A DNA stretch of 64,000 nt from contig BCGQ01000003.1 of the NCBI GenBank assembly GCA_001599355.1, forward strand, positions 560,468 to 624,467, in the 5' to 3' direction. The stretch comes from Nakazawaea peltata. Lineage: Eukaryota > Ascomycota > Pichiomycetes > Alaninales > Pachysolenaceae. The notes under the pieces are model-generated. The model was not told where the DNA came from, made no database searches, and saw only the letters and a program-made list of their open reading frames with translations. The position numbers and the translations under genes are program-made. Positions 6,404-35,600 of the stretch are shown here, one piece after another. The stretch's first letter is position 1, and each line of letters starts with the position of its first letter.

Positions 6404-7930
6404 ATGGCCCCAAAAAGAGATAGATGTCCCGGGTGTAATGGGACGACTCTTGTTAGAGATATCAGCACATCCAGTTCGCTTTCATGTGTCACGTGCAGTA
6501 GAGTGTTAGAAGACAATCCGATCGTATCGGAGCTTCAATTTTCCGATGGAGCCGCCGGTTCTTCAACTGTGGAAGGTCAATTTGTAGGAGCCGATCAGAA
6601 GAGAGTCACCACTGGAAATATTGGTAAGAATGCCATGGATTCTAGGGAACAGACGTTGGCTAAAGCGAAGAAAAGCATCAAAGATATCGCCAGATCGCTT
6701 CGGATATCTTCATATATCGAAGACTCGGCGTTTCTTTGGTTCAATTTACTGTTGTCGTACAATTTTGTCCAGGGAAGAAAGTCTCAGATCGTTTATGCTC
6801 TGTGTTTGTATATTCTGTGTCGTAAGGAGAAGACACATCACATGTTGATCGACTTTTCGTCGAGAATTCAGGTCTCTGTGTTTGCTGTAGGTGCTACCTT
6901 TTTAAGGTTAGTGAAAACACTTCATATCACCAACTTACCTTTACTGGATCCTTCATTATTTATTCAGCATTTCGCTGATAAGTTGGATTTTGGGAGTCTG
7001 AGGACCAAAGTGATCAAAGATGCCGTGAAATTATGCCAAAGAATGGCCGATGATTGGATCCATGAAGGTAGAAGACCTGCTGGTATTGCCGGAGCTTGTT
7101 TATTATTGGCTGCCAGAATGAATAATATGAGAAGAACTCATACTGAGTTAGTTGCTATTTCTCATGTTGCCGAGGTGACGTTACAGAAGAGATTGAATGA
7201 GTTCAAGAAAACTCATGGTGCATCTTTGACCGTTAATGAATTTAGACAGACCGATAATTATCAAGCTACTCTGCCTCCATCTTTTTTGAGGAACAGAAAA
7301 CTGGAGAAAAAGGGATGTGATGATCCTGCTGAACCGGTGGATAAATTGATTCAAGACGTATTCAACGATGGAGCTCTTTCAGAGCAAGACATTAATAAAG
7401 AATTGAAAAGAATCAGTGACCGGCAAAAGAATCTCAATAAAGGTGAATATCCTCAACTGGCTCAGCGTATTGAATACGAGACTCTGAAAGAAAATAGAAA
7501 GAAAACGTATATAATGCATTTCCCTCAAACGACGACGGAAGAATTGCTTTCAAAGATCTCGTCTGACCCATCCAATTTAGATGACGTCGACGACGACGAG
7601 ATCGATGGAGCTCTTCTCACGACGGAAGAATCCGAGTTGAAAACTCGAGTATGGTACGGATTGAATCGTGAATTCTTATTGGAGCAAGAAGAGAAGAAGT
7701 TGAAGGAACAAAGAGACGAGGTCGCCGGTCATGGTAAACCTAAACGGAAGAAGATCAAGAAACAAGAAGACGAAGATCTGCTCTTCCAAGAAGCCGTCGA
7801 TAATAGTATAGGAGAACCATTACTGGGAGTTAAAGGAGGTGCTCACGCTGTCCTGCTGTTGATGACAAAGAAGAGTACCAAGATTAACTACAGTGCAGTT
7901 GGTAATTTATTCGAAGATGGTGGTGTATAA
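6404..7930 (+). CDS. BRF1: Brf1, TFIIB-related subunit of RNA polymerase III factor TFIIIB
   Basis: Brf1 joins TBP and Bdp1 to recruit RNA polymerase III to tRNA and 5S genes. The 508-residue product starts with a zinc ribbon (CPGC, then CVTC; residues 8-33). Two cyclin folds follow (about 80-265), with VQGRKSQ, CRKEKTHH, LDPSLFIQHFA and EGRRPAGIAGACLLLAARM. The C-terminal part keeps the TBP/Bdp1-binding homology (V-W-Y-G-L-N-R-E-F-L-L-E-Q-E). CTG codons 116, 133, 138 and 181 stand where TFIIB/Brf proteins have alanine, which makes this the best gene in the window for reading the genetic code. CTG codon 290, before P-P-S-F, stands where S. cerevisiae Brf1, as I remember it, has Leu. Confidence 0.96.
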   Translation: MAPKRDRCPGCNGTTLVRDISTSSSLSCVTCSRVLEDNPIVSELQFSDGAAGSSTVEGQFVGADQKRVTTGNIGKNAMDSREQTLAKAKKSIKDIARSLRISSYIEDSAFLWFNLLLSYNFVQGRKSQIVYALCLYILCRKEKTHHMLIDFSSRIQVSVFAVGATFLRLVKTLHITNLPLLDPSLFIQHFADKLDFGSLRTKVIKDAVKLCQRMADDWIHEGRRPAGIAGACLLLAARMNNMRRTHTELVAISHVAEVTLQKRLNEFKKTHGASLTVNEFRQTDNYQATLPPSFLRNRKLEKKGCDDPAEPVDKLIQDVFNDGALSEQDINKELKRISDRQKNLNKGEYPQLAQRIEYETLKENRKKTYIMHFPQTTTEELLSKISSDPSNLDDVDDDEIDGALLTTEESELKTRVWYGLNREFLLEQEEKKLKEQRDEVAGHGKPKRKKIKKQEDEDLLFQEAVDNSIGEPLLGVKGGAHAVLLLMTKKSTKINYSAVGNLFEDGGV

Positions 7931-8137: not shown

Positions 8138-9955
8138 ATGTTCGACCAATTCTTGATCTTCTCGGGCTCGGGAGCCGTCTTATTCAAGTACCAGCTGAGA
8201 AGAACCCCGGAAAATGTCATAAACAACTTCATCTCCTCAACATTCGTCTCTCAAAGAGAGACTTTGGTTGGGATCAACAACAAGGTTGAAGAGGAGGAGG
8301 AGGAGGAGGACAGTGATGGAGAAGAGGGGGTCAAATCGGAGACCATCACCACTTATAATGGCGACGGGTACACGATCAAGTACATCAAGACCAGTATTCC
8401 GAACTTGTGCTTCTCTCTTGCGTATCCATCGATGATTCATTTACATAATACTGAGAGTATATTGGTTCAGGTGAAGAGATTGTTCCTTGAGATGTTTGAG
8501 GATGAGATCATGGAGCGGGTGAGGTTGAATCCTATGGATTTAGTTGATTTTGAGGGTGAGAAGTATGTGAAATTTGAGCAATTTTTCAACTTGCAATTGG
8601 AGAAGTATAAGAGTAGTCAGAATGAGATTGGAGGTGGAAATGGAGGTGGAAATGGAGGTATTGGTGGGGGTATTGGTGCCGGAAATGTTGGTTCAATCAC
8701 TCCAAGTGGTAGAGATTCGCCTAAGAAGAAATCCCAGTCACTGGCCGCCTCAAAAAAGTCCAGAAAATGGGGTATTGATGGTTCTTTTGTAGAAGATAAT
8801 GGAATTGAAGATCTGGCTTTAGATTTCTCTCTGGCTGCTACTCCAAACGACGTGAAGAAGGATTTAAAGAACGTCGTAGGTAATACGGCCAACTTCGGGT
8901 CTCATGGCAAGAAAGGTGAGTTCTTAGTTAGTGATTTGGGTGCCGAAATGGACAGGATTTTACAAAATTCCAGTGAGAAACCAAGAAAACAAAAGTCTGC
9001 TCTGAAAGAGGATTCTCTGGCTTTGGGATTCTTGAGAAACTATATTGGAGGTAAGACAATCACTAAGGATGTGATCCAGAAGACTACCCAGCTGTTAACT
9101 GACCATTTAATTAAGAAGAACGTAGCTCCAGAAGTCGCTAAGAATCTTATCAGTAATGTTGAGAAGAGTTTGATTGGTAACACGACCAAATCGTTTACTT
9201 CGATCGACCAAACTTGTAAAGAACTGTTAACCGATGCATTGACTACACTTTTGACTCCAAATACTTCCATGGATTTGTTGAATGAGATCCAGGCCAAGAG
9301 AAAGAAGAATGAGCCTTACGTAATATCGGTCGTTGGTGTTAATGGTGTAGGAAAGTCTACGAATCTTTCGAAATTGGCCTTCTGGCTCTTACAAAACAAC
9401 TACAAAGTGTTGATCTGTGCATGTGATACCTTCAGATCTGGAGCTGTCGAGCAATTGAGAGTTCATGTTAACAATCTTAAACAACTTACTGAGGATTCTG
9501 AGACTCCGAGGGTAGAATTGTTTGAAGGAGGTTACGGAGGAGCTGATTTGGTCGCTAAGATCCTGCGTGGAGCCATCAAACATGCTCAAGAGACCGATTT
9601 CGATATCGTCTTAATGGACACTGCCGGAAGAAGACATAACGATACAAAGTTGATGGCTCCATTACTGAATTTCGCTAAAGCTGCTAATCCTGATAAGATT
9701 ATTATGGTTGGAGAGGCTTTGGTCGGTACCGATTCGGTGCTGCAAGCTCAGAACTTCAATAATCTGTTTGGGGCCAACCGGAAATTGGACTGTTTCATCA
9801 TTTCCAAGTGTGATACCGTCGGAGATTTGATCGGAAGTATGGTCAATATGGTTTACGCTACAGGTATTCCGATTTTATTTGTTGGTGTTGGTCAGACATA
9901 CACGGATTTGAGAACTTTGAAGGTTGATTGGGCTGTGAACATGTTGATGTCATGA
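8138..9955 (+). CDS. SRP101: SRP receptor alpha subunit (Srp101)
   Basis: This GTPase docks the signal-recognition particle with its nascent chain at the ER membrane. The 605-residue product starts MFDQFLIFSGSGAVLF, the usual start of the longin-like SRX domain that binds the beta subunit. The frame is open further upstream but has no ATG there, so 8138 is the start. A charged, Gly-rich linker (about 140-240) leads to the NG domain. The P-loop GVNGVGKST is near residue 400, followed by DTFRSGAVEQL, MDTAGRRHND, ISKCDTVGD and GVGQTYTDLRTL. CTG codons 476 and 543 align with alanines of the family. Confidence 0.96.
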   Translation: MFDQFLIFSGSGAVLFKYQLRRTPENVINNFISSTFVSQRETLVGINNKVEEEEEEEDSDGEEGVKSETITTYNGDGYTIKYIKTSIPNLCFSLAYPSMIHLHNTESILVQVKRLFLEMFEDEIMERVRLNPMDLVDFEGEKYVKFEQFFNLQLEKYKSSQNEIGGGNGGGNGGIGGGIGAGNVGSITPSGRDSPKKKSQSLAASKKSRKWGIDGSFVEDNGIEDLALDFSLAATPNDVKKDLKNVVGNTANFGSHGKKGEFLVSDLGAEMDRILQNSSEKPRKQKSALKEDSLALGFLRNYIGGKTITKDVIQKTTQLLTDHLIKKNVAPEVAKNLISNVEKSLIGNTTKSFTSIDQTCKELLTDALTTLLTPNTSMDLLNEIQAKRKKNEPYVISVVGVNGVGKSTNLSKLAFWLLQNNYKVLICACDTFRSGAVEQLRVHVNNLKQLTEDSETPRVELFEGGYGGADLVAKILRGAIKHAQETDFDIVLMDTAGRRHNDTKLMAPLLNFAKAANPDKIIMVGEALVGTDSVLQAQNFNNLFGANRKLDCFIISKCDTVGDLIGSMVNMVYATGIPILFVGVGQTYTDLRTLKVDWAVNMLMS

Positions 9956-10189: not shown

Positions 10190-11509
10190 ATGTCGTTTGA
10201 GAAGTTAGGAGTACTGAAATGGTTGGATGAGGCCCTTGCGGCTATGAAAATCCACACCCCAACTCATATTCAAGAAGCTTGTATCCCAAAAATCCTTGCA
10301 GGACATGATTGTATTGGAGGAGCCAAGACAGGTTCTGGTAAGACGATTGCATTTGGTGCACCAATGTTGACTAAATGGTCTGAAGATCCAATGGGGATCT
10401 TTGGAGTGATATTAACACCTACTAGAGAGTTGGCTTTACAAATTGCCGAACAATTCACTCTGTTAGGATCCACTATGAACATCCGAGTCTCGGTCGTTGT
10501 AGGAGGAGAAGATATTGTTCAACAGGCTTTGAATTTACAAGCCAGACCCCATTTTGTTATAGCCACACCAGGTAGATTGGCAGATCATATCATTAATAGT
10601 GGAGAGGAGACCATTTGCGGGTTAAGAAGGGTCAAATTCTTGGTCTTAGATGAGGCCGACAGATTGTTAAGTAATTCTTTTGGTAAAGATTTACTGAGAG
10701 TCTTTGAAGTGTTGCCAAAGCTGGAAGAACGTCAGACATTGCTTTTCACAGCTACTGTCACTGATGCCGTAAGGGCCTTGAAAGAGAAACCTGTCCTGGA
10801 GGGCAAGTTACCTGTATTTATGCATGAAGTAGAAACCGTAGATAAAGTTGCAATTCCTCAAACTCTTGCTGTTTCTTATATGTTCATTCCATCTTATGTG
10901 AAGGAGTCATATCTTTATGGGATATTGAATCTGGCAGAGAATATTGAGAAGACAGCTGTGGTCTTTGTAAATCGTACTCTGACAGCCGAGGTCTTACGTA
11001 GAACCTTGAGGTTACTCGACGTCAAACTGACCTCATTACATTCAGAAATGAAACAAACCCAAAGAACCAATTCTTTACATAGATTTAAAGCTAGTGCTGC
11101 TAGAGTTTTGATAGCTACCGATGTGGCTTCGAGAGGTTTGGATATTCCTACCGTAGAGATGGTGATCAACTATGATATTCCAGCTGACCCTGACGATTTC
11201 ATCCATAGAGTAGGTAGAACAGCCAGAGCTGGTCGTAAAGGTGAAGCCATTAGTATGGTTACCGAGAAAGATGTGACTAGAATTTTGGCTATTGAGGAGA
11301 GAATTAATAAAAAAATGGATAAATATGAAGTTGTCACCGATAATAAGATCATCAAGGATGCTTTGACAGCTGTCTCTGCTGCAAAGAGGGAACTGTTGAT
11401 GGATATGGATAAAGATAATTTTGGGGAGAAGAAGAAGATTAATAAGAGGAAGAATGGGGAGGAGGAGAGGAAGGTTAAGAAGAGTAAGAAAAGTAAGGGG
11501 AGGGACTGA
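10190..11509 (+). CDS. DBP8: Dbp8, DEAD-box RNA helicase of 18S rRNA processing
   Basis: Dbp8 is a nucleolar ATP-dependent helicase needed for 40S subunit synthesis. The 439 residues carry all DEAD-box motifs in order: Q motif around HIQEAC, Walker A GAKTGSGKT, PTREL, VGGED, TPGR, DEAD (V-L-D-E-A-D-R-L-L), TAT in place of SAT, VNRT, ATDVASRGLDIP and HRVGRTARAGR. The strings FGAPMLTKWSEDP and ILTPTRELALQIAEQF are diagnostic for Dbp8 rather than Rrp3. The C-terminus is a Lys-rich tail. The ATG at 10190 gives a start like the family's (F-x-x-L-G-V-x-K-W-L). Confidence 0.96.
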   Translation: MSFEKLGVLKWLDEALAAMKIHTPTHIQEACIPKILAGHDCIGGAKTGSGKTIAFGAPMLTKWSEDPMGIFGVILTPTRELALQIAEQFTLLGSTMNIRVSVVVGGEDIVQQALNLQARPHFVIATPGRLADHIINSGEETICGLRRVKFLVLDEADRLLSNSFGKDLLRVFEVLPKLEERQTLLFTATVTDAVRALKEKPVLEGKLPVFMHEVETVDKVAIPQTLAVSYMFIPSYVKESYLYGILNLAENIEKTAVVFVNRTLTAEVLRRTLRLLDVKLTSLHSEMKQTQRTNSLHRFKASAARVLIATDVASRGLDIPTVEMVINYDIPADPDDFIHRVGRTARAGRKGEAISMVTEKDVTRILAIEERINKKMDKYEVVTDNKIIKDALTAVSAAKRELLMDMDKDNFGEKKKINKRKNGEEERKVKKSKKSKGRD

Positions 11510-11908
11510 AGAGGAGAGAGTAGCCATCTCCTGCCGTCATCTCCCGTCCTCCATAAGCATCTTCCACCCTCGCATTCACTATATAATCATATATAATAAA
11601 AGTGATGATCTGGTGTAATGATGTAGCTGATTGGTGTAATGATGTGAAATGGATGGATCGAGTACTCCGACCTGATCTTCGGAATGATCACGTGTCATGG
11701 GTTCGGAACATCATGAATTTCAGAGAATTCAGGTAATCCACTTCTACTGAAGAGTGGTGGAGGCGATAGTTGATCTCTACAGTGTCTAGGATGGTAGATA
11801 TCCAGTTATAGCACCCTTCCTACGCATTTAAATCTCAAGTATATTTAGTATATTAAGTAATGCTAATCTAAGTATGAAACCGAGGGTAACTTGGCTATAG
11901 AGCATGAA

Positions 11909-12188
11909 GTAGAGCTAGAATAGAGCTAGAATAGAGCTAGAATAGAGCTAGAATAGAGCTAGAATAGAGCTAGAATAGAGCTAGAATAGAGCTAGAATAG
12001 AGCTNNNNNNNNNNNNNNNNNNNNNNNNNNNNNNNNNNNNNNNNNNNNNNNNNNNNNNNNNNNNNNNNNNNNNNNNNNNNNNNNNNNNNNNNNNAATAGA
12101 GCTAGAATAGAGCTAGAATAGAGCTAGAATAGAGCTAGAATAGAGCTAGAATAGAGCTAGAATAGAGCTAGAATAGAGCTAGAATAGA
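11909..12188. repeat. 11-bp minisatellite (AGAGCTAGAAT)n with internal assembly gap
   Basis: The unit AGAGCTAGAAT repeats nearly perfectly on both sides of a run of Ns, with about eight or nine copies visible on each side. The right edge decays into AGAATAGAGAACAG. The true copy number is unknown because of the gap. The unit length is not a multiple of three and the array lies between convergent genes, so it is non-coding. Confidence 0.95.
12005..12094. other. Assembly gap (90 N)
   Basis: A run of 90 Ns sits inside the 11-bp minisatellite. Both flanks are the same repeat, so the assembly broke on the repeat and the gap length need not be real. Confidence 0.98.
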
Positions 12189-12232
12189 GAACAGAATAGA
12201 GCATAGAATATAGCCCGGAGAGTAGGTTCCAT

Positions 12233-14458
12233 CTAAAATCCCTTCTTCTTCTGCTTATCAATATGTGCCCTCAATACCTTCTGTCTATCCCTCAAACTCA
12301 TCTTCTGTTTACCCTGGACTTGTTTCTTATGGATCATCATGACGAAGTTCTTCTTTCTGGCCTTCTCTTTATTGGTGGTGGAATGAGAATTTGGATCTCT
12401 CTTACCCTTTCTGGAACCATGTTTCTCGTCATCCTTTCCTTCCTTCTGCAGAGCAATACGTTCTTCTCTCAACATTTTATACTTGACAGGTCCTACTAAA
12501 CTGGTAGAATCAACTTCTTCTTCGTTGTGTAACTTCTTTGGACCTCCCATGATCTTCTCGATTCCGGCCTCTTGTTGTAATTCCTTCAATTTGGCGAAAT
12601 CAGCTGGAGTCAAAACACGAGAAGTTAAAAGTTCAGTGATAAGATCTTGCAGAGAAGCTCCAGAGGCAGAAGTAGAAGCAGAGGCAGAGGCCAGCTTAGA
12701 GGATTTCTCAGTCTCATCATCAGATAATTCAAGATCGGAATCTTCATCTCCTCCAACTCCTTCACCTTCACCTTCACCATCATCTCCATCAGAAATCTCA
12801 ATATCCTCTCCATCATCTTTAACATCGACCCAATCACCTTCAATGTCATCTTCCTCCTCACTTTCTTGCTCTTTAACCAGCCAAGCAGCTTCATCCTCAT
12901 CCTCAGCTGTCAACCCTTGCTCTTTTCTCCATTTAGCCAACAATTCCAACCCTGGAATAGACGTAGTAGTAGCTCTCTCGACACCAAACTGCGGTAACCC
13001 TTCTCTCTCGTTTCTCTGCAACTCCATAGCAGCAGTCTTCCCTCTATCTTTCTTCAGTAACATTTCAGGAGCTACTTCTCTATACAAAGTGATCAACGAA
13101 CGAGCAGCCATCATAACAGGCTTCGATTTGGAGCCCTTATATTCGGTCAAATCTTGTAATAAGGTAGAATCAATAGCAAGTGGAGCTCTGGCAAGAATCT
13201 CTCTGATAGTATTGAGACCAGCTGAAGCAACCTCAGCTGCAACACCATCACTTACAAACTCATCAGCAATCTTACGAACAACCATATTGATAGACTCAGG
13301 TGGAACCAAATCATGAGATGCTTGAGCTGCTGCTGCCATGATTTGAGTGACATTTCTTTGCTTAGGAGTCAAATATTTCAAGAAGAATGAGTAAATACCC
13401 AACACTGTAAGCTTATGGGTACCAATTAACCTTGAAACCAAGTTCATCAACATGATTTTCTGGTCAAGATCGAACTTGTTCGAATGTTTAGCAGTGAGAT
13501 GGTTATTATACAACAGTTCAGCAAATCCTTGAGGATCTCTTAACAAATGAATAGCTGAGAAGTTCAAATAAGTCAGTGAATGTTTAGCACTCGACTTCTT
13601 CTTCACCTGTTTCATAGCATTCTCAAGCTTCTTTCCTCTTTTACCCGATTTCTTATTCATTTGCATCTTATGTTTCATAGAAGCGATATCAATGTCCTCG
13701 TCATCACTGTCGTCCTCTTCTTGCATCTCCTCTCTCTCCTTGTCGGCACCCAAGAAGAACTTCACACCGGCAATAGACACTTTAGGATCCGAATGTAAAG
13801 CTGCTTGGGTCATGATCTCGACAGTTCTCGAGTCATCCCAAATTCCTCTTCTCCATAATTCTCTAGTCAATTTAGTCAGCCATAAACCTTGAGATGAGGT
13901 GGACTGCTCCTCGAGCAAGTTGAAAAGCAAGGCCTGCGTCGACCTGTTCAACTTCTGGTTCTTCGACCCGGCGTTCACGTTCTTCAATAAGCTCACCAAC
14001 GTGGAGTAAATCTGCTTTCTTAACTGCTTCAGATGCAGACCAATGTTTGGAGCATTGGACGAGTATGCGATTAAAAGTGGGAAGATGGTCTGGATCAACG
14101 CTTCAGACGTGATCACTTTACGGTTTCTCAACATCGTAAGACACTGAATGATCTTCTCCCTCAACTCCGGGCTCAAATCACGGTGGTTATTGGCCAAAAG
14201 TTGTCTCAATTCATTGGGGAAGTTGGCGGTTTCTTTGGGATAACATGAACATACGGCACTTACAAAGCCGATCAACTCTTCAAATTGCGAGTTTCCGTTC
14301 GAAGCCAGTGGATTCATCATGAAAATATCTCTTAATGTTTCGTAATGCGAATATTGTTGGGAGAATTCCTCATAGTAGGACTCTGGATCCCTACGAACGG
14401 CATTCTGCAAGAGAATGATATTGGTGGGGAGGGTGGCGGTTGTTCTTCTTTTGACCAT
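12233..14458 (-). CDS. SDA1: Sda1, 60S ribosomal subunit biogenesis factor
   Basis: Sda1 is a nuclear protein of the pre-60S particle, needed for subunit maturation and export. The 741-residue product has the family's N-terminus (T-L-P[14 protein letters not shown]), an armadillo-like helical body, and a KxxGKRGKKL basic stretch near residues 270-300. A long acidic segment lies at about 520-600. The basic C-terminus holds [17 protein letters not shown], highly conserved in Sda1. The length is typical. The promoter shared with SPC97 has two RRPE words around a GATGAG core. Confidence 0.95.
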
Positions 14459-14872: not shown

Positions 14873-17224
14873 ATGATGACAAATTCATCGCTCCAGTTAA
14901 TAAACTCCATTCATTTACTTGGACGGACAACTGGACCATCCACTGACTCCAGTAACGCCCCCGCCAACACCCCCATCACCCCCAACACCACCAATAAATA
15001 CCCGATCCAAGACGCGCTGGACCTTCATCTTCAACAGCTGCTCATCATGAAAGACCTTTTTCACGTGTTGATCGGACTCGAAGGCAACTACGTCAGGTAC
15101 TCCAAGAAATTCGACCCCTCCTATGACGCCATCTCAGGCCCAAATTACAATATCACCAAGCATCTTGACCCTTCTCTTTCTGATATAATGAAGAGAATGG
15201 TACGACTTGGCAAATATTACTACGCGTTGAGCGCGTTTTGCGAACAATATGACGATGAAACCAACGGGAAAGTGGTGCAACTGTTTTGTTATGAGATTCG
15301 TCAGGTATTAAAGCTTTATTTACTGGCCTTAGTAAGAGTCGAGCAACGGTTTTCTACAGAACCTTCATATTCACTCCGATTACTCGAGCAAGATATGGCC
15401 AATGATCCTGTAGCCACCAAGCTTTCACATTGTTATGAATTAGTCACTTTCATCCACGAAGAAAATCGCACCAGATCACTGCAAGTTGAGAACCATTTCA
15501 CTGCTCTTATCAAAGATATCAGAGAAGATTTGCAACAGACCGGCGGGATTGATATTTACGCTGACTCAAGTAATAGTAGAATCGTAAAAGGAGGACTTGT
15601 ATTGAAGATTATTGAGCAGAGATTGGATCTGATCAAGGGAGATCCTCTTTCGAGTGACTTTCTTCGTCAATTATTCCATAATATTAGCTCCGATTATATT
15701 CAAATGTTGAATGATTGGTTATTGAGAGGGCATTTCGATGATCCATACGATGAGTTTTTCATAAGAGTGGTGAAACAGCTTCCTCAGATCTCAGATGAAG
15801 CCCATTGGGATAATAAATTCAGTCTTCGTAAAGAAGGATTAGTTAGAGCTCTTTCGGTGAGAGAAATCCAGACTAAAATCTTACTCACAGGTAAATATTT
15901 GAATATTCTGAAAGAATCAGGAGTTCAAGTCGACGATTTAGTCACAAATTCTATCATGATAACTTCACTTAACCCCACAGATTTGTATTTACAGATCGAT
16001 AGAGCTTATAAAAGAGCTAATGAGTTGATTTCTGGGTTATTTATTGAAGGATTCAACCTTTATGAACTTTTAGTATCGCTTAAAAGGTTTTATCTCTTGG
16101 ATTCTTCGAATAATTTCAACCGATTCCTCGATATTTCCATTTCTGAATTGAAAAAACCACTGGATCTTGCTTCGGAATCAACTTTATTAAGACATTTTGC
16201 TACTAGTCATGTAAAAGAGGACTCTATTGAGTTGGATTTGGTCTCGAAATCCAATAACATCCAACAAATCAGCAACAAAATGGTATTCTCCTTGCTCGAA
16301 CTCACTCTCGAACACAATACTGTCTATAATTATCTCTTTGAGATCTTGAATGTTCAAGCTCTTGATGCAGATGAGCTGTTGGCGTCTTCTAATGTGAATT
16401 TCTTGAAGCAATTACTCAATAAGACACTCGAAACTGAGCGTGAAGACCGTCCTACTACATCTTCTAACTCCAAAACTGACAATTACGCAATCAACAGACT
16501 CAATTTCGATCTTAATATCCCCTTCCCTTTGAATTTGGTCATCACAAGAACGTTTTTCACCCAATTCCAACTTATAAATCGCCATTTCATGGTCACCAAG
16601 TTCGTAGACAAGCTTTTGGAGTTGTCCTGGCGTGAGATCACCTTACAAAAGTTCTGGAGGTACACTTATAGAGACAACAAAGTCAACAAATGGATCTTGA
16701 GATGTCGTTCTTTGCATTCCAAGATGAGAACATTCATGAAACTTGTTCAATTTTACCTCAGTCAAGACGTAGTCGAACTGGCTTGGAAGAAACTTGAAAC
16801 CTTCCTCAGTTCTCATAGAGATGAGAATTTCGAGTTCGATTCCATCTACTTGAGTATCCAGTCCTTCATTCATTCGGTCTTCACCAACTCTTTCTTGACA
16901 TCGCAGAACTTGATCGATGTTATCAACAAATTATATGCCATCGTAACATTGTATTGTAATTTCGTGAACTCACTCAGAAAGACCTTGGTCTTACTCGATG
17001 AGGACTTGTTTTATGAATATGAATCGAAGATCACAGACAAACTGTTTGATCTTGAGAAGAATAGTGAAAGAGTTAGTAAATTAAATGAAGTTTTACTGAA
17101 TTATTCGAGGAATTTCGATCTGATGTTGATTGAATTCAATCTGGGATTGAAATATTATGGAGAATCGGAATGTCATGGGTTATTGAGATTGAATGAGGAA
17201 TTGGAGATGAGTGGGTTGTTGTGA
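14873..17224 (+). CDS. SPC97: Spc97, gamma-tubulin complex component (GCP2 family)
   Basis: Spc97 and Spc98 with gamma-tubulin form the small complex that nucleates microtubules at the spindle pole body. The 783-residue product contains KDLFHVLIGLEGNYVRY and F-x-P-S-Y then L-D-P-S-L-S, which resemble the GRIP1 start of S. cerevisiae Spc97 closely. GRIP2 features follow: D-L-Y-L-Q-I-D-R-A-Y-K-R-A-N-E-L and F-D-L-N-I-P-F-P-L-N-L-V-I-T-R (near 545). The body is helical with no membrane segment. Two ATGs (14873 and 14876) open the frame; the first is used here. GCP3/Spc98 is less likely given the L-I-G-L-E-G motif. Confidence 0.9.
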   Translation: MMTNSSLQLINSIHLLGRTTGPSTDSSNAPANTPITPNTTNKYPIQDALDLHLQQLLIMKDLFHVLIGLEGNYVRYSKKFDPSYDAISGPNYNITKHLDPSLSDIMKRMVRLGKYYYALSAFCEQYDDETNGKVVQLFCYEIRQVLKLYLLALVRVEQRFSTEPSYSLRLLEQDMANDPVATKLSHCYELVTFIHEENRTRSLQVENHFTALIKDIREDLQQTGGIDIYADSSNSRIVKGGLVLKIIEQRLDLIKGDPLSSDFLRQLFHNISSDYIQMLNDWLLRGHFDDPYDEFFIRVVKQLPQISDEAHWDNKFSLRKEGLVRALSVREIQTKILLTGKYLNILKESGVQVDDLVTNSIMITSLNPTDLYLQIDRAYKRANELISGLFIEGFNLYELLVSLKRFYLLDSSNNFNRFLDISISELKKPLDLASESTLLRHFATSHVKEDSIELDLVSKSNNIQQISNKMVFSLLELTLEHNTVYNYLFEILNVQALDADELLASSNVNFLKQLLNKTLETEREDRPTTSSNSKTDNYAINRLNFDLNIPFPLNLVITRTFFTQFQLINRHFMVTKFVDKLLELSWREITLQKFWRYTYRDNKVNKWILRCRSLHSKMRTFMKLVQFYLSQDVVELAWKKLETFLSSHRDENFEFDSIYLSIQSFIHSVFTNSFLTSQNLIDVINKLYAIVTLYCNFVNSLRKTLVLLDEDLFYEYESKITDKLFDLEKNSERVSKLNEVLLNYSRNFDLMLIEFNLGLKYYGESECHGLLRLNEELEMSGLL

Positions 17225-17415: not shown

Positions 17416-19056
17416 TCACTCCTTCCCAGCCGTCTCAGCCATCAATTGAATCACCCTCTCAATATTCTCCCCCTTCATAGCACAACATGGAACAATCTTC
17501 CATCCTCTCTCCTCTACATACTTCCTCAAACCAATAGAATTCTTCTGAGCATTCTTAAGATCCCCCTTGGTAGCCACGATCAACACCCTCTTGTTCTCCA
17601 ACCTCTCAGGACCAAGTTCCTTCAATAAAATCTCCAAATCTTTGACCGGATTGGAAGATTCAAGAGAGATCACAAACACAAGTCCTCCAGATCTTTCGAT
17701 ATGTCTCAAGAAACTCAACCCAAGACCTTTGTTATCACTGGCACCTTCGATAATTCCAGGGATATCCAGTACTGTAAAGGCCGGTTTATCAATTCTATAT
17801 GGGATAGTTCCAATCGTAGGTTGTAAAGTGGTGAAAGCCCAATGACCAACTCGAGGTCTAGCTTTAGAGATTGCTCGAAGTAAAGTTGATTTGCCGGAAT
17901 TCGGTAAACCCACAAGTCCGAGATCAGCAAGCAACTTCAATTCAAATACGAATGTCAGTTCCAAAGCTTCTCTACCTTGTTTGGCAAACCTGGGATTACG
18001 GATAGTCGGTGTGAGGAAATGCATATTCCCCATGCCTCCTCTTCCACCTTTCAAGAGAAGGACTGGGGTTTTGGTGGGCTCCGGGAAGTCTAGTCCGTTT
18101 ATAGGGAAGATATCAGTTTCTAGTTCCTCTCGAGAGAGTTTGGTGTCATACGGCACTACAGTTTTAGCCAAGTTGGTGAAATATTCTCTCTCTTGATGGT
18201 ACATTTCATCTTTATCCAGTTTGAAGAGCCAGCCTTTGCCTGGTTCGTATCCTGGACGGAAGAATTGCAAGAACTTTGGCTTTGGATCATATAAATGATC
18301 ACCTACAGCATGCAGAACTACACTTCTAGGAGTCTCTTTATCCTTCAAATGGTCTTTGAATTGAAGAGGATCAGGACACCATTTGACTACGGTTCCAACT
18401 GGGACTGTGATGATCATATGCTCACCTGTCTTACCGTCGAGTTGGTTTTTCTGGCCATTACCACCATCTCCTGCCACATACTTCACTTTAAGTCTATGCA
18501 ATGAGTTCAATCCTTCAACAGCTTGAATGTAAATGTCTCCTCCGTTACCTCCATCACCCCCATTAGGTGGACCTTTAGAACGACCGGCTTCTCTTAAAAA
18601 AGAGACAGTCCCGTTTCCACCTTTGCCGGATCTGAGCTTGACATACCTGATATCAGCAAATGATTGGTTGGAGTCCACTTTGGGTCTGTTTTTATAACTC
18701 AAATGTGACCACATCGATGAATATACTTGGAAGTTGGAGAGAGGAAACCCTACTTTGAAGAAATTCTGGTCCTGACTAGGGGTCTCTAAAATCTTGTAGG
18801 GGGAATTTGGACCTTCAGTCTCCGAGCAATCAACTTCTTCAATGGAATACTGCTCTAAACCAAGATGAGAGATCACTGGCCTTGCTTCAAGAGCCTCCTG
18901 ATCACCTTCAAAAGCTCCCAATTCTTTCAACCACAGCTCATTCTCTGCCAAAGTAGGAGCATTATCTGGGGCATCACCGAATTTTCTGGTACTCAAAACG
19001 GTCCTACTACTCCTCACTGTCCTCGTGAGCCTCAATAACCCTTTATATCCGATCAT
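17416..19056 (-). CDS. MTG2: Mtg2, mitochondrial Obg-family GTPase
   Basis: Mtg2 assists assembly of the large subunit of the mitochondrial ribosome at the inner membrane. The 546-residue product begins with a basic, Ser/Thr-rich stretch (M-I-G-Y-K-G-L-L-R-L-T-R-T-V-R) typical of a mitochondrial targeting sequence. The Obg fold follows (about 130-345), with GKGGNGTVSF, GPPNGGDGGNGG and GGRGGMGN glycine-rich turns. The G domain has P-loop GLPNSGKST near 381, switch TTLQPTIG, DIPG and a final ATKGD in the NKxD position. The family's G-domain order is intact. A GAGATGAG PAC-like word lies at about 19155. Confidence 0.95.
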   Translation of the reverse strand: MIGYKGLLRLTRTVRSSRTVLSTRKFGDAPDNAPTLAENELWLKELGAFEGDQEALEARPVISHLGLEQYSIEEVDCSETEGPNSPYKILETPSQDQNFFKVGFPLSNFQVYSSMWSHLSYKNRPKVDSNQSFADIRYVKLRSGKGGNGTVSFLREAGRSKGPPNGGDGGNGGDIYIQAVEGLNSLHRLKVKYVAGDGGNGQKNQLDGKTGEHMIITVPVGTVVKWCPDPLQFKDHLKDKETPRSVVLHAVGDHLYDPKPKFLQFFRPGYEPGKGWLFKLDKDEMYHQEREYFTNLAKTVVPYDTKLSREELETDIFPINGLDFPEPTKTPVLLLKGGRGGMGNMHFLTPTIRNPRFAKQGREALELTFVFELKLLADLGLVGLPNSGKSTLLRAISKARPRVGHWAFTTLQPTIGTIPYRIDKPAFTVLDIPGIIEGASDNKGLGLSFLRHIERSGGLVFVISLESSNPVKDLEILLKELGPERLENKRVLIVATKGDLKNAQKNSIGLRKYVEERGWKIVPCCAMKGENIERVIQLMAETAGKE

Positions 19057-22796: not shown

Positions 22797-22881
22797 AGCC
22801 CGACGCGGGGCTTGAACCCGCAACCTTTTGATATCTGTATATCTTAAGAGTCAAACGCTCTACCGATTGAGCTAGCCAGGC
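22797..22881 (-). tRNA. tRNA-Lys (anticodon CUU) with a 12-nt intron
   Basis: The acceptor stem GCCTGGC pairs with GTCGGGC allowing two G-U pairs, with discriminator T. The D arm has GCTC/GAGC and the T arm GCGGG/CCCGC around TTCAAGC. The anticodon stem TTTGA/TCAAA encloses a 19-nt stretch. It reads as the seven-base loop CTCTTAA, anticodon CTT, with an insert of 12 nt at the standard position after base 37. AAG is decoded as lysine. An oligo-T terminator follows. Confidence 0.95.
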
Positions 22882-27901: not shown

Positions 27902-28589
27902 ATGTCACAAATTACTCAAATCTTCAAGAATCGTCCATTGTAAGTAGCTTGGAGAGACCACTAACTCGAGCTTTTATACTAACTATTGTAGGTTGAAAGC
28001 AATGGTTGCTTTGGGCGCTTGTTGTGCACCATTATATCTGTCTTCATTGAGCATTGGACCTTCTTATGGTAAGTTGATCGACCAGAAATTGAGAGAGGAG
28101 CAAGAGCTTTTGAAGAGGGAGAATGCTTATGATCCACAAAATTGGAGAGTGAAGTTTTTGGGAAATTGGAAAGAGCATCATCTGGGTGTTTATGATGAGG
28201 CTCTGCAAGAGCGTTTCCTGCAACAGACAGCTAAATCATCTGGAGAGACGGTGAATGGGTTCAAGTTTTCACTGGGTGAATCGGGGGAATCGGGGGAATC
28301 GGAGGGAGAACTGCTGAGTGAAACTGAGTCACTGAGCGAGGGAGAATCACTGAGTGAAACTGCTGCTCCGGCCGAAGAAAGTGCTCCAACTGAAGAAACA
28401 ACTCCAGCCGAAGGATCTGCTCCGGCTGAAGAATCGGCTCCTGCTGAAAACAGCTCAACTGAGGCTGCGCCAGCTGAAGAAAAGCCTACCGAGGAAACAT
28501 CTGCCAAACCTGCTCCTGAAGCTGCTTCTGAAGCTACTGAGGCTCCAGAAGCTACTGAGGCTCCAGAATCTACTGAAGAAACTTCCTGA
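27902..28589 (+). CDS. Small membrane protein C with acidic Ala/Glu/Pro tail (spliced)
   Basis: Two exons, 27902-27939 and 27992-28589, give 211 residues. The N-terminus has one hydrophobic segment (about 16-34) with the P-x9-P-S-Y pattern of proteins A and B, then D-Q-K-L-R-E-E-Q-E-L-L and an N-W-R-V-K-F-L-G-N-W stretch. From about residue 110 the protein is a low-complexity tail of Ser, Glu, Ala, Pro and Thr, with repeats of the form A-P-A-E-E. Most CTG codons of the tail fall where Ala fits the repeat (E-S-x-S-E). A mitochondrial inner-membrane place is plausible by architecture only. I do not recognise the family. Confidence 0.8.
27940..27991 (+). other. Intron of the protein C gene (52 nt)
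   Basis: Donor GTAAGT at 27940, branch point TACTAAC at 27977-27983, acceptor TAG ending at 27991. The first exon has 38 nt. Splicing gives N-R-P-L-L-K-A-M across the junction. Confidence 0.9.
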
Positions 28590-28641: not shown

Positions 28642-30450
28642 CTACTCCAATTGACTCTCCAAGTTCAATATGTACTCATAATAGAAAGCAATTGTCTGTA
28701 AGAAGGACCCGACATCGGCCTTTTCGTCAACTGAATGAGCATGACTGTCATAGACTTCCAATGAAGGAGGGAAGAATCTGAAAATATGGTCAGTCAATGC
28801 CCAATAAGATTTGGTATCAGTGTTTCCGGAAGGAAGAGCAGGAGTACAAATCAAGCTCTCACAGGTACCGTTTGGACCGAATTTTTCAGGATAAAACTTG
28901 TCCTCATACAAATGTCTCAAAGTTCCAGCTAAATTGTTCCAAATATCATCGTTCAATGGCGTAACAGGCAGAGTTTGTAACGGATCTTTATAGGTGAAGT
29001 TGAAGTAGCCCTTGTCGGTTGGTTCTACGATGACTTTTCCCTCAATTACCAATCCCAAATTGTGTTTAGAGGCAATTTTCAAGATATTTGTTTGAAGTTT
29101 ATCACTGGTTTCTTGAACACTACTTTCAACACTGATTCTGTTGTTAACTAAGATGGAAACATGTTCAGGCAAGGCATTGGATTTGACTCCACCGCTGATA
29201 ATGTCAATCAGTTGAGAAGTGGTGATCATATATTTCATATATGGGCTATCTTGGAGCATCCACTCGACTACATTTTGGTTCAGGTCCATATCAATGCCAC
29301 TACGGAAGATATTAGATCTCAATTCTGGAGACATGTCGGAAGAATGTTCGGCAAGACATTGTAATTTGCCCATAACTGGATTTCTGTTTGATAACAGAGG
29401 AGAATATGGAGTCTTCTCGATCTCATTGATCAATTCTGACATAATACCAATACTGGTATGGTCTGGAGGGACACTAGAATGTCCTCCTGGAGTAAATAAT
29501 TCAATAATAGCATCCAAATATCCCTTCTCACCAGTATCAATACCAAGGAACATGTTACCACCTTCTTCGGAGATTCCAGAACCACCTTCATCAATGATAT
29601 GGAAGACGGAATTCTCACCGTATCTGTTCAAAATCTCATCAGCTAATAACTTCAGTGATCTACCAATAGCTTCCTCATCAGCACCGAATGACAAGAGGAT
29701 GGTTCTCTTTGGTTGGAAATCCTCCGAAAGCAATAACTCAGTGACCTCGAATAAAGCTGTCAATAACAACTTACAGTCAAGAACACCACGACCCCAAACA
29801 AATTTACCATCGTATTCACCCGAGAATGGAGAGTAAGTCCAATCCTTAATGGTTTCCTTCTGAACGGGAACGACATCTTGATGCAGCATAAGAACCAACG
29901 GCTCCAAAGTTTCATCAGATCCCTTCCAAGTATAAAGCAAACCGGAGTAGACTTTAGTCAACTCCAATTTGGAATGGACCAACGGGAACAGCTCTTCCAA
30001 ATACTCATGTAATTTGATGAAATGATCCCACAGATGAGGATTCTCATCGATGTTACCCCACTCATCATACACTTCGGTGGGTCTTTGAACAATCCCACTC
30101 CAATGAGCAACGGATTGGTTCCTGTAAGTCTCGTCCTTCAAAATCTTATCAATAAGATCTTCAGAATACAATTTATTTGAAGGGAAAATCTTCTCCGGGA
30201 TTGGACAAAGAGAGTCAGGAGCACCATCCAGCAATGGGTTCAAACCGTGGGCTTTGACAGCGTGGGCCCTGTCACCGTGGGCTCCGTTACCGTGGGCCTT
30301 GATAGCGTGGGACCCCTTAGCGTGGGGACAACCGGCCAAGATATCCCACGAGCCAAATGAGAACCCAATTGAGCTCAAAATCACCAAAAGAATGGCCGGA
30401 GCTAAGATGAATGGAATCTTCGACTTCGATTTACCTGTTTTCTCGTTCAT
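28642..30450 (-). CDS. CPS1: Vacuolar carboxypeptidase S (Cps1), M20 metallopeptidase
   Basis: Cps1 cleaves C-terminal residues from peptides in the vacuole. It is made as a type II membrane precursor sorted through multivesicular bodies. From the ATG at 30450 the product has 602 residues: a basic cytosolic tail, a signal-anchor at about 14-34, then the lumenal domain. Metal-site motifs are L-M-L-H-Q-D-V-V-P-V, W-G-R-G-V-L-D-C-K and G-A-D-E-E-A-I-G; the fold ends with a C-terminal H-A-H-S-V-D-E. The frame is open seven codons further upstream but without an ATG. The stem after the anchor holds a five-residue His/Ala/Gly repeat encoded by a 15-bp tandem repeat. Confidence 0.95.
   Translation of the reverse strand: MNEKTGKSKSKIPFILAPAILLVILSSIGFSFGSWDILAGCPHAKGSHAIKAHGNGAHGDRAHAVKAHGLNPLLDGAPDSLCPIPEKIFPSNKLYSEDLIDKILKDETYRNQSVAHWSGIVQRPTEVYDEWGNIDENPHLWDHFIKLHEYLEELFPLVHSKLELTKVYSGLLYTWKGSDETLEPLVLMLHQDVVPVQKETIKDWTYSPFSGEYDGKFVWGRGVLDCKLLLTALFEVTELLLSEDFQPKRTILLSFGADEEAIGRSLKLLADEILNRYGENSVFHIIDEGGSGISEEGGNMFLGIDTGEKGYLDAIIELFTPGGHSSVPPDHTSIGIMSELINEIEKTPYSPLLSNRNPVMGKLQCLAEHSSDMSPELRSNIFRSGIDMDLNQNVVEWMLQDSPYMKYMITTSQLIDIISGGVKSNALPEHVSILVNNRISVESSVQETSDKLQTNILKIASKHNLGLVIEGKVIVEPTDKGYFNFTYKDPLQTLPVTPLNDDIWNNLAGTLRHLYEDKFYPEKFGPNGTCESLICTPALPSGNTDTKSYWALTDHIFRFFPPSLEVYDSHAHSVDEKADVGSFLQTIAFYYEYILNLESQLE
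30245..30330. repeat. 15-bp tandem repeat inside CPS1
   Basis: Five full copies and one partial copy of a 15-bp unit (plus-strand form starting (C/G)CGTGGG) keep the frame. They encode an A-H-x-x-x repeat in the stem just after the membrane anchor of Cps1. Confidence 0.85.
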
Positions 30451-30757: not shown

Positions 30758-32611
30758 TTAAGAAGATTCGATACCAGTCAACCATCCAGTAGATCTTTGG
30801 ACGGCTCTCTCCCACAAGGTCCAGTTCTTTCTTCTCTCATCATCACCCATAGTAGCACGGAAAGTGTTGTTGACTGGGACACTGTCCTTAGAAGTCAACA
30901 ATTCGTTACCCTTGGAGATTTCAGCAACGGCATCGGTCAAAGAAGACCAAACACCAGAGTGCAAACCAGCAGCGATAGCAGCACCCAAAGCGGTACATTC
31001 GGCGTTTGGAGATCTCTTGACGGTGACACATGGACCCAAGATATCAGATTGGATTTGCATAACCTCGTCAGACTTGGACATACCACCATCGACGGCCAAA
31101 ACGTCCAATGGAGCAGTACCATCCAGCTTGGAGGACTCATCAAGGAAGTCGGCAGAAGCACCGGCATCGTTGATCATAGCCTTTAAGATAGCTCTGGTTT
31201 GGAAACAAACACCTTCCAAAGCAGCTCTAGCAATATGAGAAGCAGAAGTGTATTGAGTCAAACCCAAGATGGTACCTCTGGAGTCAGAGTCCCAGTATGG
31301 AGCGAACAAACCACTGAAAGCTGGGACGAAAACGACACCACCAGAGTTCTTAACCATGGAGGCCAAAGGTCCGACATCTTGCAGCTTGGAGATCAATCTC
31401 AAGTTGTCTCTCAACCATTGGACAACGGAACCGGCAACGGCAATAGAACCTTCCAAAGCATATTGTGGTTGGGAAGCAAACTCACCGTCAACACTCTCGT
31501 CCAAGTTAGGGAACCAGTAACCGAAGGTGGTCAAAGCACCGTTCTTGGAGATCAACTTGTTCTCACCAGTGTTGTATAACAAGAAGGCACCGGTACCGTA
31601 AGTACACTTGGCAGAACCCTTCTTAACGGCCAATTGACCAACAAGAGAGGCAGATTGGTCACCAAGACAACCACAAACTGGCAATCCCTCGACAGTTTGC
31701 AAAACCTCAAGAGCCTCCTTGGTCAAACCACTCTCGGTGTAACCAATCAGGGCCAAGTCTGGAATAGAGAACTCACCATACTTCTCAGAAGATGAGACAA
31801 TCTTTGGCAATTGAACCTTCTTCTTGTCGACACCCCAGAATTCCAATAACTCGTCATCGTAATCCTTGGTCTCCAAGTTCATGAAGGCAGTTCTAGCAGC
31901 GTTGGTGACATCAGAAACGAAAGCCTTCTCCTTGGTCAAGTTGTAAATCAACCAAGTGTCAACGGTACCGAACATCAAGTCACCATCACCGTTGTTATAA
32001 GCGTCAGCGACAGCTGGAACATTCTCCAACATCCAGATGAATTTGGTGGCAGAGAAGTAGGTGGAAACTGGAGTACCACTCTTTTGTCTCATAGCCTCCA
32101 ATTTCTCCTTGGAGTTCTCGTTGTTGATTCTGGTAACAATGGCACCGTTTCTGGTATCGTTCCATACAATACCGTTGTACAAAGCCTTACCAGTCTTCTT
32201 GGACCATACAATGGTGGTCTCTCTCATATTGGCAACACCGACAGCGTTAACCTTGTAAGGAACCTCACGGGACTCGTTGGTGGTCTTCAAAGAAGCCAAA
32301 CAAGCAGCGAAACATTGGACAGCGTTGGCCAAAATACTCTCAACACGACATTCAACCCAACCGGCTTGTGGGAACAGTAAAGTTGGCTTCAGGGTAGACT
32401 CCAAAACCAAGTCGGCAGTCTCAGTAATAGCAATACCCTCGTTAGAGATGATTTGCTCACTGGAGTCTCTTCTGCTTCCTACTTGGGCAGAAGTAGAATA
32501 TTCGATTTGGTGCTTGGCGACTTCTTGACCAAGCTTGTTGAAGAGAATGACTCTGGTGGAGGTGGTACCAATGTCGATGGTAGCAACCAAAGGCTCAAAG
32601 GATGTAGACAT
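30758..32611 (-). CDS. GUT1: Glycerol kinase (Gut1)
   Basis: Gut1 phosphorylates glycerol to glycerol-3-phosphate in the cytosol, the first step of glycerol catabolism. The 617-residue FGGY kinase starts with the ATP phosphate loop D-I-G-T-T-S-T-R-V-I-L-F-N. It has A-N-M-R-E-T-T-I-V-W and W-N-D-T-R in the glycerol site and C-T-Y-G-T-G-A-F-L-L as part of the FGGY signature. The adenosine loop is V-D-G-G-M-S-K-S-D-E. Codon use is strongly biased (TTG for Leu, AGA for Arg, few rare codons), as in highly expressed yeast genes. It diverges from a glycerol channel gene across about 5 kb of gene-free DNA. Confidence 0.97.
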   Translation of the reverse strand: MSTSFEPLVATIDIGTTSTRVILFNKLGQEVAKHQIEYSTSAQVGSRRDSSEQIISNEGIAITETADLVLESTLKPTLLFPQAGWVECRVESILANAVQCFAACLASLKTTNESREVPYKVNAVGVANMRETTIVWSKKTGKALYNGIVWNDTRNGAIVTRINNENSKEKLEAMRQKSGTPVSTYFSATKFIWMLENVPAVADAYNNGDGDLMFGTVDTWLIYNLTKEKAFVSDVTNAARTAFMNLETKDYDDELLEFWGVDKKKVQLPKIVSSSEKYGEFSIPDLALIGYTESGLTKEALEVLQTVEGLPVCGCLGDQSASLVGQLAVKKGSAKCTYGTGAFLLYNTGENKLISKNGALTTFGYWFPNLDESVDGEFASQPQYALEGSIAVAGSVVQWLRDNLRLISKLQDVGPLASMVKNSGGVVFVPAFSGLFAPYWDSDSRGTILGLTQYTSASHIARAALEGVCFQTRAILKAMINDAGASADFLDESSKLDGTAPLDVLAVDGGMSKSDEVMQIQSDILGPCVTVKRSPNAECTALGAAIAAGLHSGVWSSLTDAVAEISKGNELLTSKDSVPVNNTFRATMGDDERRKNWTLWERAVQRSTGWLTGIESS

Positions 32612-35600
32612 TATAAAGTATGATTAATGATACAGTATTAGATAACCTATATGACTCCAAGTTAGGGGGATATTGGGGGGAATTTATATTTTTTCCATAA
32701 AAGAAAATTTATCAGCGAGGTAGATTTCGGTTGGAGATTGGGTGGATTAATTTTGCGATTTTTCTGGGGAAGAAAAATTCTATCTGTGAGCCCGGTGGTT
32801 TTTTCTTATTGTTCTCCATGTTTGGTGCATGTATTCTGGGATTTGGGAGGGGGTAGTGTGCGTTTTGTTCTGGTGTTCTTAAAAAAAAGAAAGGAATTAG
32901 GGTGGGAAAAAAAAGAAATCTGTCCCGGTTAATGATTCGATATTAAAAAGTTTAATCCCCCTCTCCCTTTTTCCCAGAGTGTTCTGGTAGGGGAGATATG
33001 GGAACAGTTATGTGGTTGGATGCATTTGTGGATTCAACTGTACTTCTTTAAGGCTTACAGGTCATTGAAATCCAGATCTTCACATGTCGTTTCGGCGCTT
33101 AAATTGCTTGGGGTACTCCAAAATGTCGTTCGCAATACAAAAGAAAAATAACCAACTCGCATTATTTTGTTTTTGGAAAACTCCTTATTTCAGCTTAACG
33201 ACTCTGTGGGTTTTTCTGGGGCCCCGCACACACTGAGAAGACCTGAGGGTCTCAAGCATCGTAGGAAAAAATAGAAACAAAGGAAAAAAAACTTGAAAGA
33301 TTGCACAATCTTTAAGCAATAGGGGCCATGCTTTTCTCGATTCCCAGACTGTGTGCTTTACATTATCTACTGCAGTTATACCATCTGAGGGGTGTGTTGT
33401 TGTTATTGTCAGAAATAAAGATAATTACCTTACTGTATAGCCCCCTCACTCCCGCCTTCAGTTTCTCATCGGAATCATTTTTAGGTTTTATTTCGGCTCG
33501 TCGCCCTTAGCTACAAAGCTTCTCTCCGCAACGTCTTATTTTATTCCTTTCTGAATTTTGGTCACTACTTTCTTATTCAAAAGAAAGGAAAAATATGTTC
33601 CGAACATCTATGTACTCCGATAATTTTTTTTGCCCCACAATGCTCTCTTCTTATGCCTTTCGGAATAATTTTTATATTGCGCGCGTATTCAATTGGACGG
33701 GGCCGGATCATCGAGTTATTCAAGTTTTTGTTCCGAATCCACTCTTCGCCGCTCACCGAGCTGAAAACTTATTCCAGCCACGAAAATTCTTAGGACCCTA
33801 TCCGATACAGAAGAAGGCTAATACTTTAAATCATTTACTTTTCTATCTTTTTATCCCTAAAACACTGACAACATTTAATATCATTAATTCACTTATAGGC
33901 TGTGCCTCTGCTCTTGCTATTGCTATTAGCTCATCTCACACAATAGATGTCAAACAGCAACAGCAACAATTTCTGATATCTTGCTTTATTTTGCTGACGC
34001 CTTGATATTACGCTCAGTTCTTAATTAAAAAAATTCTTTCCTTTTACAGTAAGTGTGCTATATATTGTTTCGTACACTACTTTTTCCAAGAGTATCCCCT
34101 ATTTTGAAAAGTAACAGAGAGATCTTTAGTAATCATGAATTGCATTATCAAAATTGATCAACTTAAACCGAGACACAGGATAATTGCTTGAACCCTGTAT
34201 TGTTCGCTTTTGATTCTTTCTTGGTTTTTCATGTACCAAGAGATTGTAATTCCCCCGAAAACTGAACACTCAGGATCAAGATCTTGAACCCCATCAGAAC
34301 ATATTGGAAACCATGATCAAGTGGGGATCATTAATTTGAAGATAATGGTCAGTTCATTACATTACCGTTTAATCCCACATTATCTCTCTCCTCTTTGTTC
34401 CCCACTTATTCCCCTCCTATTGCCGGGTACAAAATATTAATCTTGATCTATTAACACAAACCAGCTAATTGCATCTTCAAACCTTTTGATCCGCAAGTTT
34501 AGATGTGACCTCCACCAGATGAACCCACCCAAAGTCTCAAGTGGGTTACTGAAGATTCCCCGAGAGTTTCGGAATTTTGTTAGTCACTCCTTTTTATCAC
34601 AATTGTTCGGAAGAGACTATCAATTGATTAATAATCCGTGATCTTATTTTACGGAGGATCTACAAATCGTGAAGACACTGCTCTACACCTCAGATCTCGG
34701 CGTGACCGGAGTTTTGTTGGGAAATTTACATTTCAATTCAATATCATTCCCCACAATTTTAAGGCAATTCACCCATTAGTCCGCTATGGCAAAAGCAGCC
34801 AATCGATTCTGAAAGTAACTGGGTGATATCTTAAAGAGGGGCTTTCACGGTTTACACGATCTTGCCAAGAATGAAAACATCCGGGGTAATTGTTTGTCTA
34901 TTTAGTCAATCCTGTAGCAACTCTTATCTTTTTGGGAACCATATACAAATTTAGTAAAAGAGTTTTCGGGGTCCAAATAGGAATTTTTCGCATGAGTTCC
35001 GAAATGAGATCCGGAACCTATATTCAGAAACAAACTTTTTGGGAACAGGCCAAGCAATAGAAGACCACTACTATAATGAGTTGTTCGCGTAAGACGACTT
35101 TCGGAACTAGGGATCCCAAGTTGAGTGTGAGAACATTGATTCTGAAAGTAATTTATAAATGTATGATGACGAAAAAGGAGGGGTTTATTCGATAAAGATT
35201 CACGAAATAGGCCACGACAACAAACAAGGCAGCCAGGAAGATTTACACGAGAGTTGGTTTCTATAGAAACTGCTTCACGCTTTACGATAAGCGATTTTCT
35301 TGAAGCTAAATTGACCTCAAAATTTAAGCAAAAGTAACCAGGACTGTAGATAAAAGAGATCCTACTAAATCATCTACACTACTCATCAGTCTGGTCCTAT
35401 TATATTGAATTCCAGAGCGATGATGTATCGCAAGACTGGAAAAAACTCGAAAGGCTTGAGCTGATGAATCAAAGAACACTAATACAAGGGACACACTGTT
35501 CCGTAGGATCTGAGTGTTTCCAGGTCTCGGAACAACAGGACAAAAGCTACAATCGGAATCGAGAAGTTCTGAACATAAATTAGTTCCGACAAAGCGAATT

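Follow-up and report, generated by a model that had tools for sequence, protein, structure and literature searches.

The 64,000-nt window (the whole stretch of DNA that was analysed) very probably comes from the nuclear genome of a budding yeast in which CUG encodes alanine (NCBI translation table 26), and we give this reading a probability of about 0.93. Comparison with related proteins supports alanine as the best of the 20 amino acids in a tabulation of ten proteins from the window and as the best of three readings in sums of Pfam scores. By the same comparisons the leucine reading is firmly excluded, and the serine reading less firmly. This reassignment had been proposed in a sequence-only reading of the window, and it stands, with Ala first of 20 readings at the CTG columns and the Pfam sums in agreement. 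Alanine as the meaning of CUG in budding yeast nuclei is already known, and the available parts of PMC11540330 and PMC5951914 place it in print since 2016 to 2018; the window exemplifies this known code and not a new one. The proteins of the window are to be translated with table 26, and a wrong choice of code would put about 1.6% of their residues in error (220 CTG among 13,457 codons in 25 ORFs).

The Brf1 gene (6404-7930, + strand) encodes a TFIIIB subunit of 508 aa with Pfam TFIIB and BRF1 matches. Among solved structures the protein is closest to TFIIIB 70 kDa subunits (E 3.7e-138 and 2.7e-137), the second value being that of chain 6eu0_Z, which we take to be S. cerevisiae Brf1. Translation of 6404-7927 with CTG masked places the 13 CTG codons at 116, 133, 138, 181, 199, 290, 300, 352, 361, 459, 474, 484 and 485. 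Codons 116 (6749-6751), 138 (6815-6817) and 181 (6944-6946) face Ala in 6eu0_Z, and codon 133 (6800-6802) faces Ser. In chain 1d3u_B, presumably an archaeal TFIIB, codons 116, 133 and 138 face Ala and codon 181 faces Val. The four codons lie where the sequence-only reading had put them, and its placing of codons 116 and 181 at alanines of Brf1 agrees with 6eu0_Z. Its further claim, that codons 133 and 138 hit both alanines of an A-A-C-L-Y-x-A-C-R motif, is exact for the TFIIB chain, but at the first of the two 6eu0_Z has Ser. Five more CTG codons are aligned to 6eu0_Z and face K, R, K, A and D, so that the nine stand opposite four Ala, two Lys, and one each of Ser, Arg and Asp. Ala is thus found opposite 4/9 of the CTG codons in Brf1 and 22/85 overall, as against 1.3% of 544 columns at other Leu codons, and its presence opposite the Brf1 CTG codons is not due to chance.

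Ten of the 25 ORFs in the window, picked as proteins with expected solved relatives, were tabulated in this way. CTG was masked as X in nine of the alignments, so that no reading was favoured, and the HECT protein was read by table 26. One closest relative was used per protein (for MLH1 an N-terminal and a C-terminal one), and a second tier added up to two more. The ten genes contain 119 CTG codons, of which the alignments used cover 90 and pair 85 with a residue in the closest relative. These residues are 22 Ala, 12 Lys, 7 Ser, 7 Glu, 6 Asp, 5 Leu, 4 Gln, 4 Asn, 3 each of Arg, Thr, Tyr and Val, 2 Pro, and one each of Gly, Phe, His and Met. As a yardstick from the same columns, the encoded amino acid recurs in the relative at 40% of 317 columns for GCN (Ala), 30% of 304 for TCN (Ser) and 59% of 544 for other Leu codons. 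Where at least two relatives are aligned, they agree at 8 of 36 CTG sites, on Ala at six and on Lys and Ser at one each. Agreement at GCN sites (57 of 164) is on Ala in 44, and at other Leu sites (105 of 248) on Leu in 96.

The alignments left out were mostly near-duplicates or more distant chains: u97134, u1668 and u11847 for Brf1, u127319, u99768 and u116175 for the SRP receptor, u61689 for MLH1, u163836 for Spc97, u173496 and u173498 for the PCI protein, u142474 and u145697 for the helicase, u112733 and u81763 for glycerol kinase, u39027 for TRM734, and u157915, u159211 and u161137 for the HECT protein. Blocks were also left out within alignments, namely query 314-322 for Brf1, 73-139 of u85412 for the SRP receptor, residue 411 for the PCI protein, 518-739 of u148956 and 514-552 and 608-738 of u143193 for SDA1, 435-535 of u81109 for Spc97, 9-39 and 489-570 of u58055 for glycerol kinase, and 903 onward for TRM734.

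CTG codons facing Ala in the closest solved relative are spread over the other tabulated genes. The SRP receptor alpha subunit (8138-9955, +) has four, codons 363, 476, 510 and 543 (starting at 9224, 9563, 9665 and 9764). The Spc97-type gamma-tubulin complex protein (14873-17224, +) has three, codons 56, 203 and 757 (15038, 15479 and 17141), as does the PCI-domain protein (44575-45816, +), where codons 59, 67 and 191 (44749, 44773 and 45145) face Ala in PCID2. Codons 251, 462 and 618 of MLH1 (49756-51732, +; 50506, 51139 and 51607) also face Ala, and on its own this protein has Ser as its best reading, by 2.4 bits. The start Met of the MLH1 ORF is paired with residue 37 of 4p7a_A, a solved MLH1 chain, so that the ORF probably lacks an exon or start lying further upstream. 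SDA1 (12233-14458, -) has Ala opposite codons 143 and 194 (14030 and 13877), and alone favours Lys. Single sites are found in the DEAD-box helicase (10190-11509, +), presumably Dbp8, at codon 280 (11027), in the TRM734-type WD40 protein (57660-60878, +) at codon 367 (58758), and in glycerol kinase (30758-32611, -) at codon 288 (31748); these three proteins alone favour Arg, Asn or Thr, and Pro, respectively, the last from 3 sites. The HECT-domain ubiquitin ligase (46074-49178, +), which we take to be Hul5, has five aligned CTG sites facing K, K, K, N and Q, none of them Ala, and favours Lys. Scored singly, with 3 to 14 sites each and hence small numbers, 4 of the 10 proteins have Ala as their best reading.

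For the scoring of all 20 amino acids, a residue spectrum for each was trained on the non-CTG codons, and the CTG columns were scored under every one in three data sets: closest relatives, all relatives, and closest relatives without the HECT protein. In the plain model Ala is first in all three, with Leu 164.5, 252.6 and 168.3 bits behind and Ser second each time, 3.6, 5.2 and 8.0 bits behind. A leave-one-out control over the other codons (those for Met, Trp and stop not included) returned the standard amino acid for 56, 57 and 57 of 58 codons. Only AGC (19 columns) and CGG (6 to 9 columns), both with few columns, were missed, and nearly all other sense codons that could be tested appear standard (56/58 with the closest relatives). 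We would attribute the narrow lead over Ser in the plain model to a below-average conservation of CTG sites. With conservation fitted, Ala is ahead of Ser by 13.4 bits and of a background-only model by 20.9 bits in the closest relatives (285 of 300 bootstraps), and ahead of Ser by 15.7 bits in all relatives (279 of 300). The fitted conservation weight at CTG is 0.47 and 0.50 in these two sets, each with 56/58 in the control, the 2.5% bound of Ala minus Ser is +2.0 and -0.7 bits, and Leu does no better than background. Among 2000 column bootstraps of the plain model the best reading was Ala in 1166, Ser in 663, Lys in 144, Gln in 26 and Asn in 1; among 2000 gene bootstraps it was Ala in 1171, Ser in 531, Lys in 295, Asn in 2 and Gln in 1.

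Pfam scores point in the same direction. Twenty window proteins were scanned under tables 26, 1 and 12, and scores were summed over 39 families picked so as not to overlap. The Ala reading gains 83.8 bits over Leu, being higher in 28 of the 39 families and lower in 6, and 18.9 bits over Ser, being higher in 20 and lower in 12. The first ten proteins contribute 77.8 and 16.3 bits to these gains over Leu and Ser, and the second ten 6.0 and 2.6. The largest single contribution comes from the TFIIB repeat of Brf1, which scores 188.8 with Ala, 183.0 with Ser and 176.4 with Leu. Families that overlapped a kept family or were weak side matches were dropped, among them Cyclin_N, MeaB, nSTAND_NTPase5, AAA_30, ResIII, Cas3-like, Peptidase_M28, Herpes_UL36, HATPase_c, FeoB_N, Arf and TPR_MalT, together with every WD-repeat family except WD40 in the TRM734-type protein. 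The dropped WD families point both ways; for PF25175, for example, the scores are 42.1 (Ala), 59.0 (Leu) and 63.6 (Ser).

An Obg-type GTPase (17416-19056, -), probably Mtg2, has Pfam matches to GTP1_OBG and MMR_HSR1 and lies outside the ten-protein tabulation. Its CTG codon 430 (17767-17769) stands directly before the Asp-Ile-Pro-Gly of the GTPase motif. A scan of prokaryote genomes with part of the GTPase gave eight bacterial loci, with Ala at this site in seven and Thr in one, L007, which looks like another GTPase. A search of 58 genomes gave 30 further loci, and in the 23 where the motif pattern was found the residue is Ala in 22 and Thr in one; L021, L029, L030, L032, L033, L035 and L038 had no match to the pattern. 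The query for these 30 was the Leu translation, so Ala was not favoured by the search. The loci are not independent, since L018 and L001 are in one genome and four of the first eight are from Achromobacter. Neither Ser nor Leu occurs at the site among the 31 bacterial loci read. On the GTP1_OBG and MMR_HSR1 profiles themselves, Leu outscores Ala by 0.3 to 0.4 bits. The same kind of prokaryote genome scan found no relative for the carboxypeptidase-like ORF at 28642-30450.

Serine is the meaning of CUG in the Ser1 (Candida) and Ser2 (Saccharomycopsis, Ascoidea) clades, and since Ala and Ser swap easily, sites that encode Ser could face Ala in relatives. Agreement among relatives shows the effect: at the Ser-codon sites of this yeast where relatives agree (34 of 144), they agree on Ser in 9 but also on Ala in 7, and an agreed Ala alone does not exclude Ser. 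Ser is second best in all the rankings, stands opposite 7 of the 85 CTG sites, codon 133 of Brf1 (6eu0_Z) among them, and scores above Ala in 12 of the 39 Pfam families, such as NMD3 and SDA1_dom. The sequence-only reading had stated that Ser does not fit; Ala does beat Ser overall, but the statement was too strong for codon 133. The plainest comparison between the two is the ratio of Ala to Ser at CTG sites, 22:7. By the shares at the yeast's own Ser and Ala codons, the expected Ala share is 0.26 if CUG is Ser (P 2.5e-8) and 0.78 if it is Ala (P 0.46). With the 13.4 bits lost in the fitted model, the 18.9 bits lost in the Pfam sums and the lack of Ser at the 31 Obg loci read, we regard the serine reading as quite improbable.

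Under the standard code CUG would be leucine and the four Brf1 sites would be coincidental. Leu does stand opposite 5 of the 85 CTG sites, and it scores above Ala in 6 of the 39 Pfam families, both families of the Obg-type GTPase among them. However, Leu is opposite other Leu codons in 59% of 544 columns but opposite CTG in 6% of 85, and it is absent from the 8 CTG sites at which relatives agree. Leu had been called odd at the four Brf1 sites from the sequence alone, and it is 164.5 bits worse than Ala with the closest relatives; we consider the chance of the leucine reading negligible. A mixed decoding, in which Ala predominates but Ser, Leu or a polar residue takes an appreciable share, would be consistent with the roughly twofold lower conservation of CTG than of GCN sites (fitted weight 0.47) and with the abundance of K, E, D, Q, N and R in relatives at these sites. 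Weak conservation is however the published pattern for recoded CUG in the available part of PMC5951914, and Leu has no marked excess at the CTG sites (5/85), so that ambiguous decoding appears a slender prospect next to a plain alanine code.

The CTG alanines do not resemble the average alanine of the window. Where the facing residue is other than Ala, it is K, E, D, Q, N or R at 36 of 63 CTG sites as against 57 of 191 GCN sites, about twice as often (P 1.5e-4), and Lys (12, next to 22 Ala) is in excess over what Ala codons predict. The polar and charged residues and the excess of Lys suggest that CTG sites are unlike ordinary Ala sites. We take this to mean that CTG alanines occupy exposed positions that change readily; this agrees with the portion of PMC5951914 available to us, according to which CUG in recoded yeasts tends toward non-essential sites. 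A possible reason is that, with every GCN codon more than one base away from CTG, most CTG alanines should have come from other codons. A possible fresh use lies in the polar footprint of CUG-Ala compared with GCN-Ala, which could help to time the refilling of CUG after reassignment.

CTG makes up 220 of the 13,457 codons in the 25 ORFs (16.3 per 1000), and the triplet occurs at 12.5 per 1000 per strand outside ORFs. Under table 26 it would supply 22% of the Ala codons, above GCA (124) and GCG (33) and level with GCC (219). CTG density varies 20-fold across ORFs, from 46 per 1000 in one low-complexity ORF to 5.4 in glutamine synthetase and 2.3 in the ORF at 42936; the ORFs of this comparison are 28002-28589 (+), 41064-42173 (+) and 42936-44249 (-). 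CTA is nearly absent as a codon (19/13,457, 1.4 per 1000 in the 25 ORFs), the triplet occurring at 14.4 per 1000 outside ORFs. It accounts for 3% of the CTN box, the A-ending share in the seven other four-codon boxes being 11 to 43%. This scarcity may reflect a CTN box without an efficient tRNA-Leu(UAG). CTA is generally unpreferred throughout the subphylum according to the available text of PMC11540330, and its scarcity in the window is thus not a special sign.

The alanine clade consists of Nakazawaea, Peterozyma and Pachysolen, and the accessible part of PMC5951914 gives the codes of 18 species at key positions by mass spectrometry; PMC11415595, as far as its text was available, agrees with it on the CUG-Ala code. 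The sequence-only reading had linked the window to table 26 and the relatives of Pachysolen, and the code is indeed reported for these three genera in the same portion of PMC5951914. They form the family Pachysolenaceae in the order Alaninales (NCBI). On the basis of the code alone, Alaninales (Pachysolen, Nakazawaea, Peterozyma) is most likely the order of this yeast, which narrows the choice to the three genera of a small order. In common with Pachysolen tannophilus, Nakazawaea and Peterozyma, the window would have CUG as Ala, the other codons standard as far as tested, and weakly conserved CUG sites. The CUG-Ser1 code (table 12, Candida) and the CUG-Ser2 code (Saccharomycopsis, Ascoidea) share with it the movement of the same codon off Leu, but there it is read as Ser and in the window apparently as Ala.

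The frequency of CUG differs from the published pattern. CUG is relatively rare in recoded clades in the part of PMC5951914 available, and what was available of PMC11540330 describes avoidance of CUG in Serinales and Ascoideales, whereas it is fairly common in the window (16.3 per 1000; 22% of Ala codons). The yeast could belong to an undescribed or separately recoded lineage outside the described Alaninales species, in which CUG is now an ordinary, often-used alanine codon, and we think this unlikely. If true, a reassigned sense codon would be able to recover fully from near-loss, and the CUG sites would be positions that turned to Ala only after the code change.

Decoding of CUG as alanine would involve a tRNA-Ala(CAG) charged by alanyl-tRNA synthetase, a mechanism that we take from the available portion of PMC5951914. 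In that portion the CAG-anticodon tRNA of the alanine clade is described as made from a tRNA-Ala gene, and the synthetase would be able to charge it since particular anticodon bases are not needed. The former tRNA-Leu(CAG) would have been lost. Searches of the 64-kb window with ARAGORN, allowing introns at normal settings, and with Rfam found no tRNA(CAG); the single tRNA found is a tRNA-Lys(CTT) gene (22797-22881, -) whose anticodon loop is interrupted by a 12-nt intron. At a lowered ARAGORN threshold, seven of 392 matches had a CAG anticodon and were treated as noise.

The window has a GC content of 41% and contains 90 Ns. A tandem array of the 11-nt unit TAGAGCTAGAA at 11877-12233 is broken by a run of Ns, which is probably an assembly gap. 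In the roughly 5 kb from glycerol kinase to a major-intrinsic-protein gene (32612-37559), the sole ATG-started ORF of at least 120 aa is at 33595-34005. A short frame at 61046-61339 (-) looks to us like mitochondrial ribosomal protein bL36, and an open frame running off the window at 61738-64000 (+) looks like the Pan2 deadenylase subunit.
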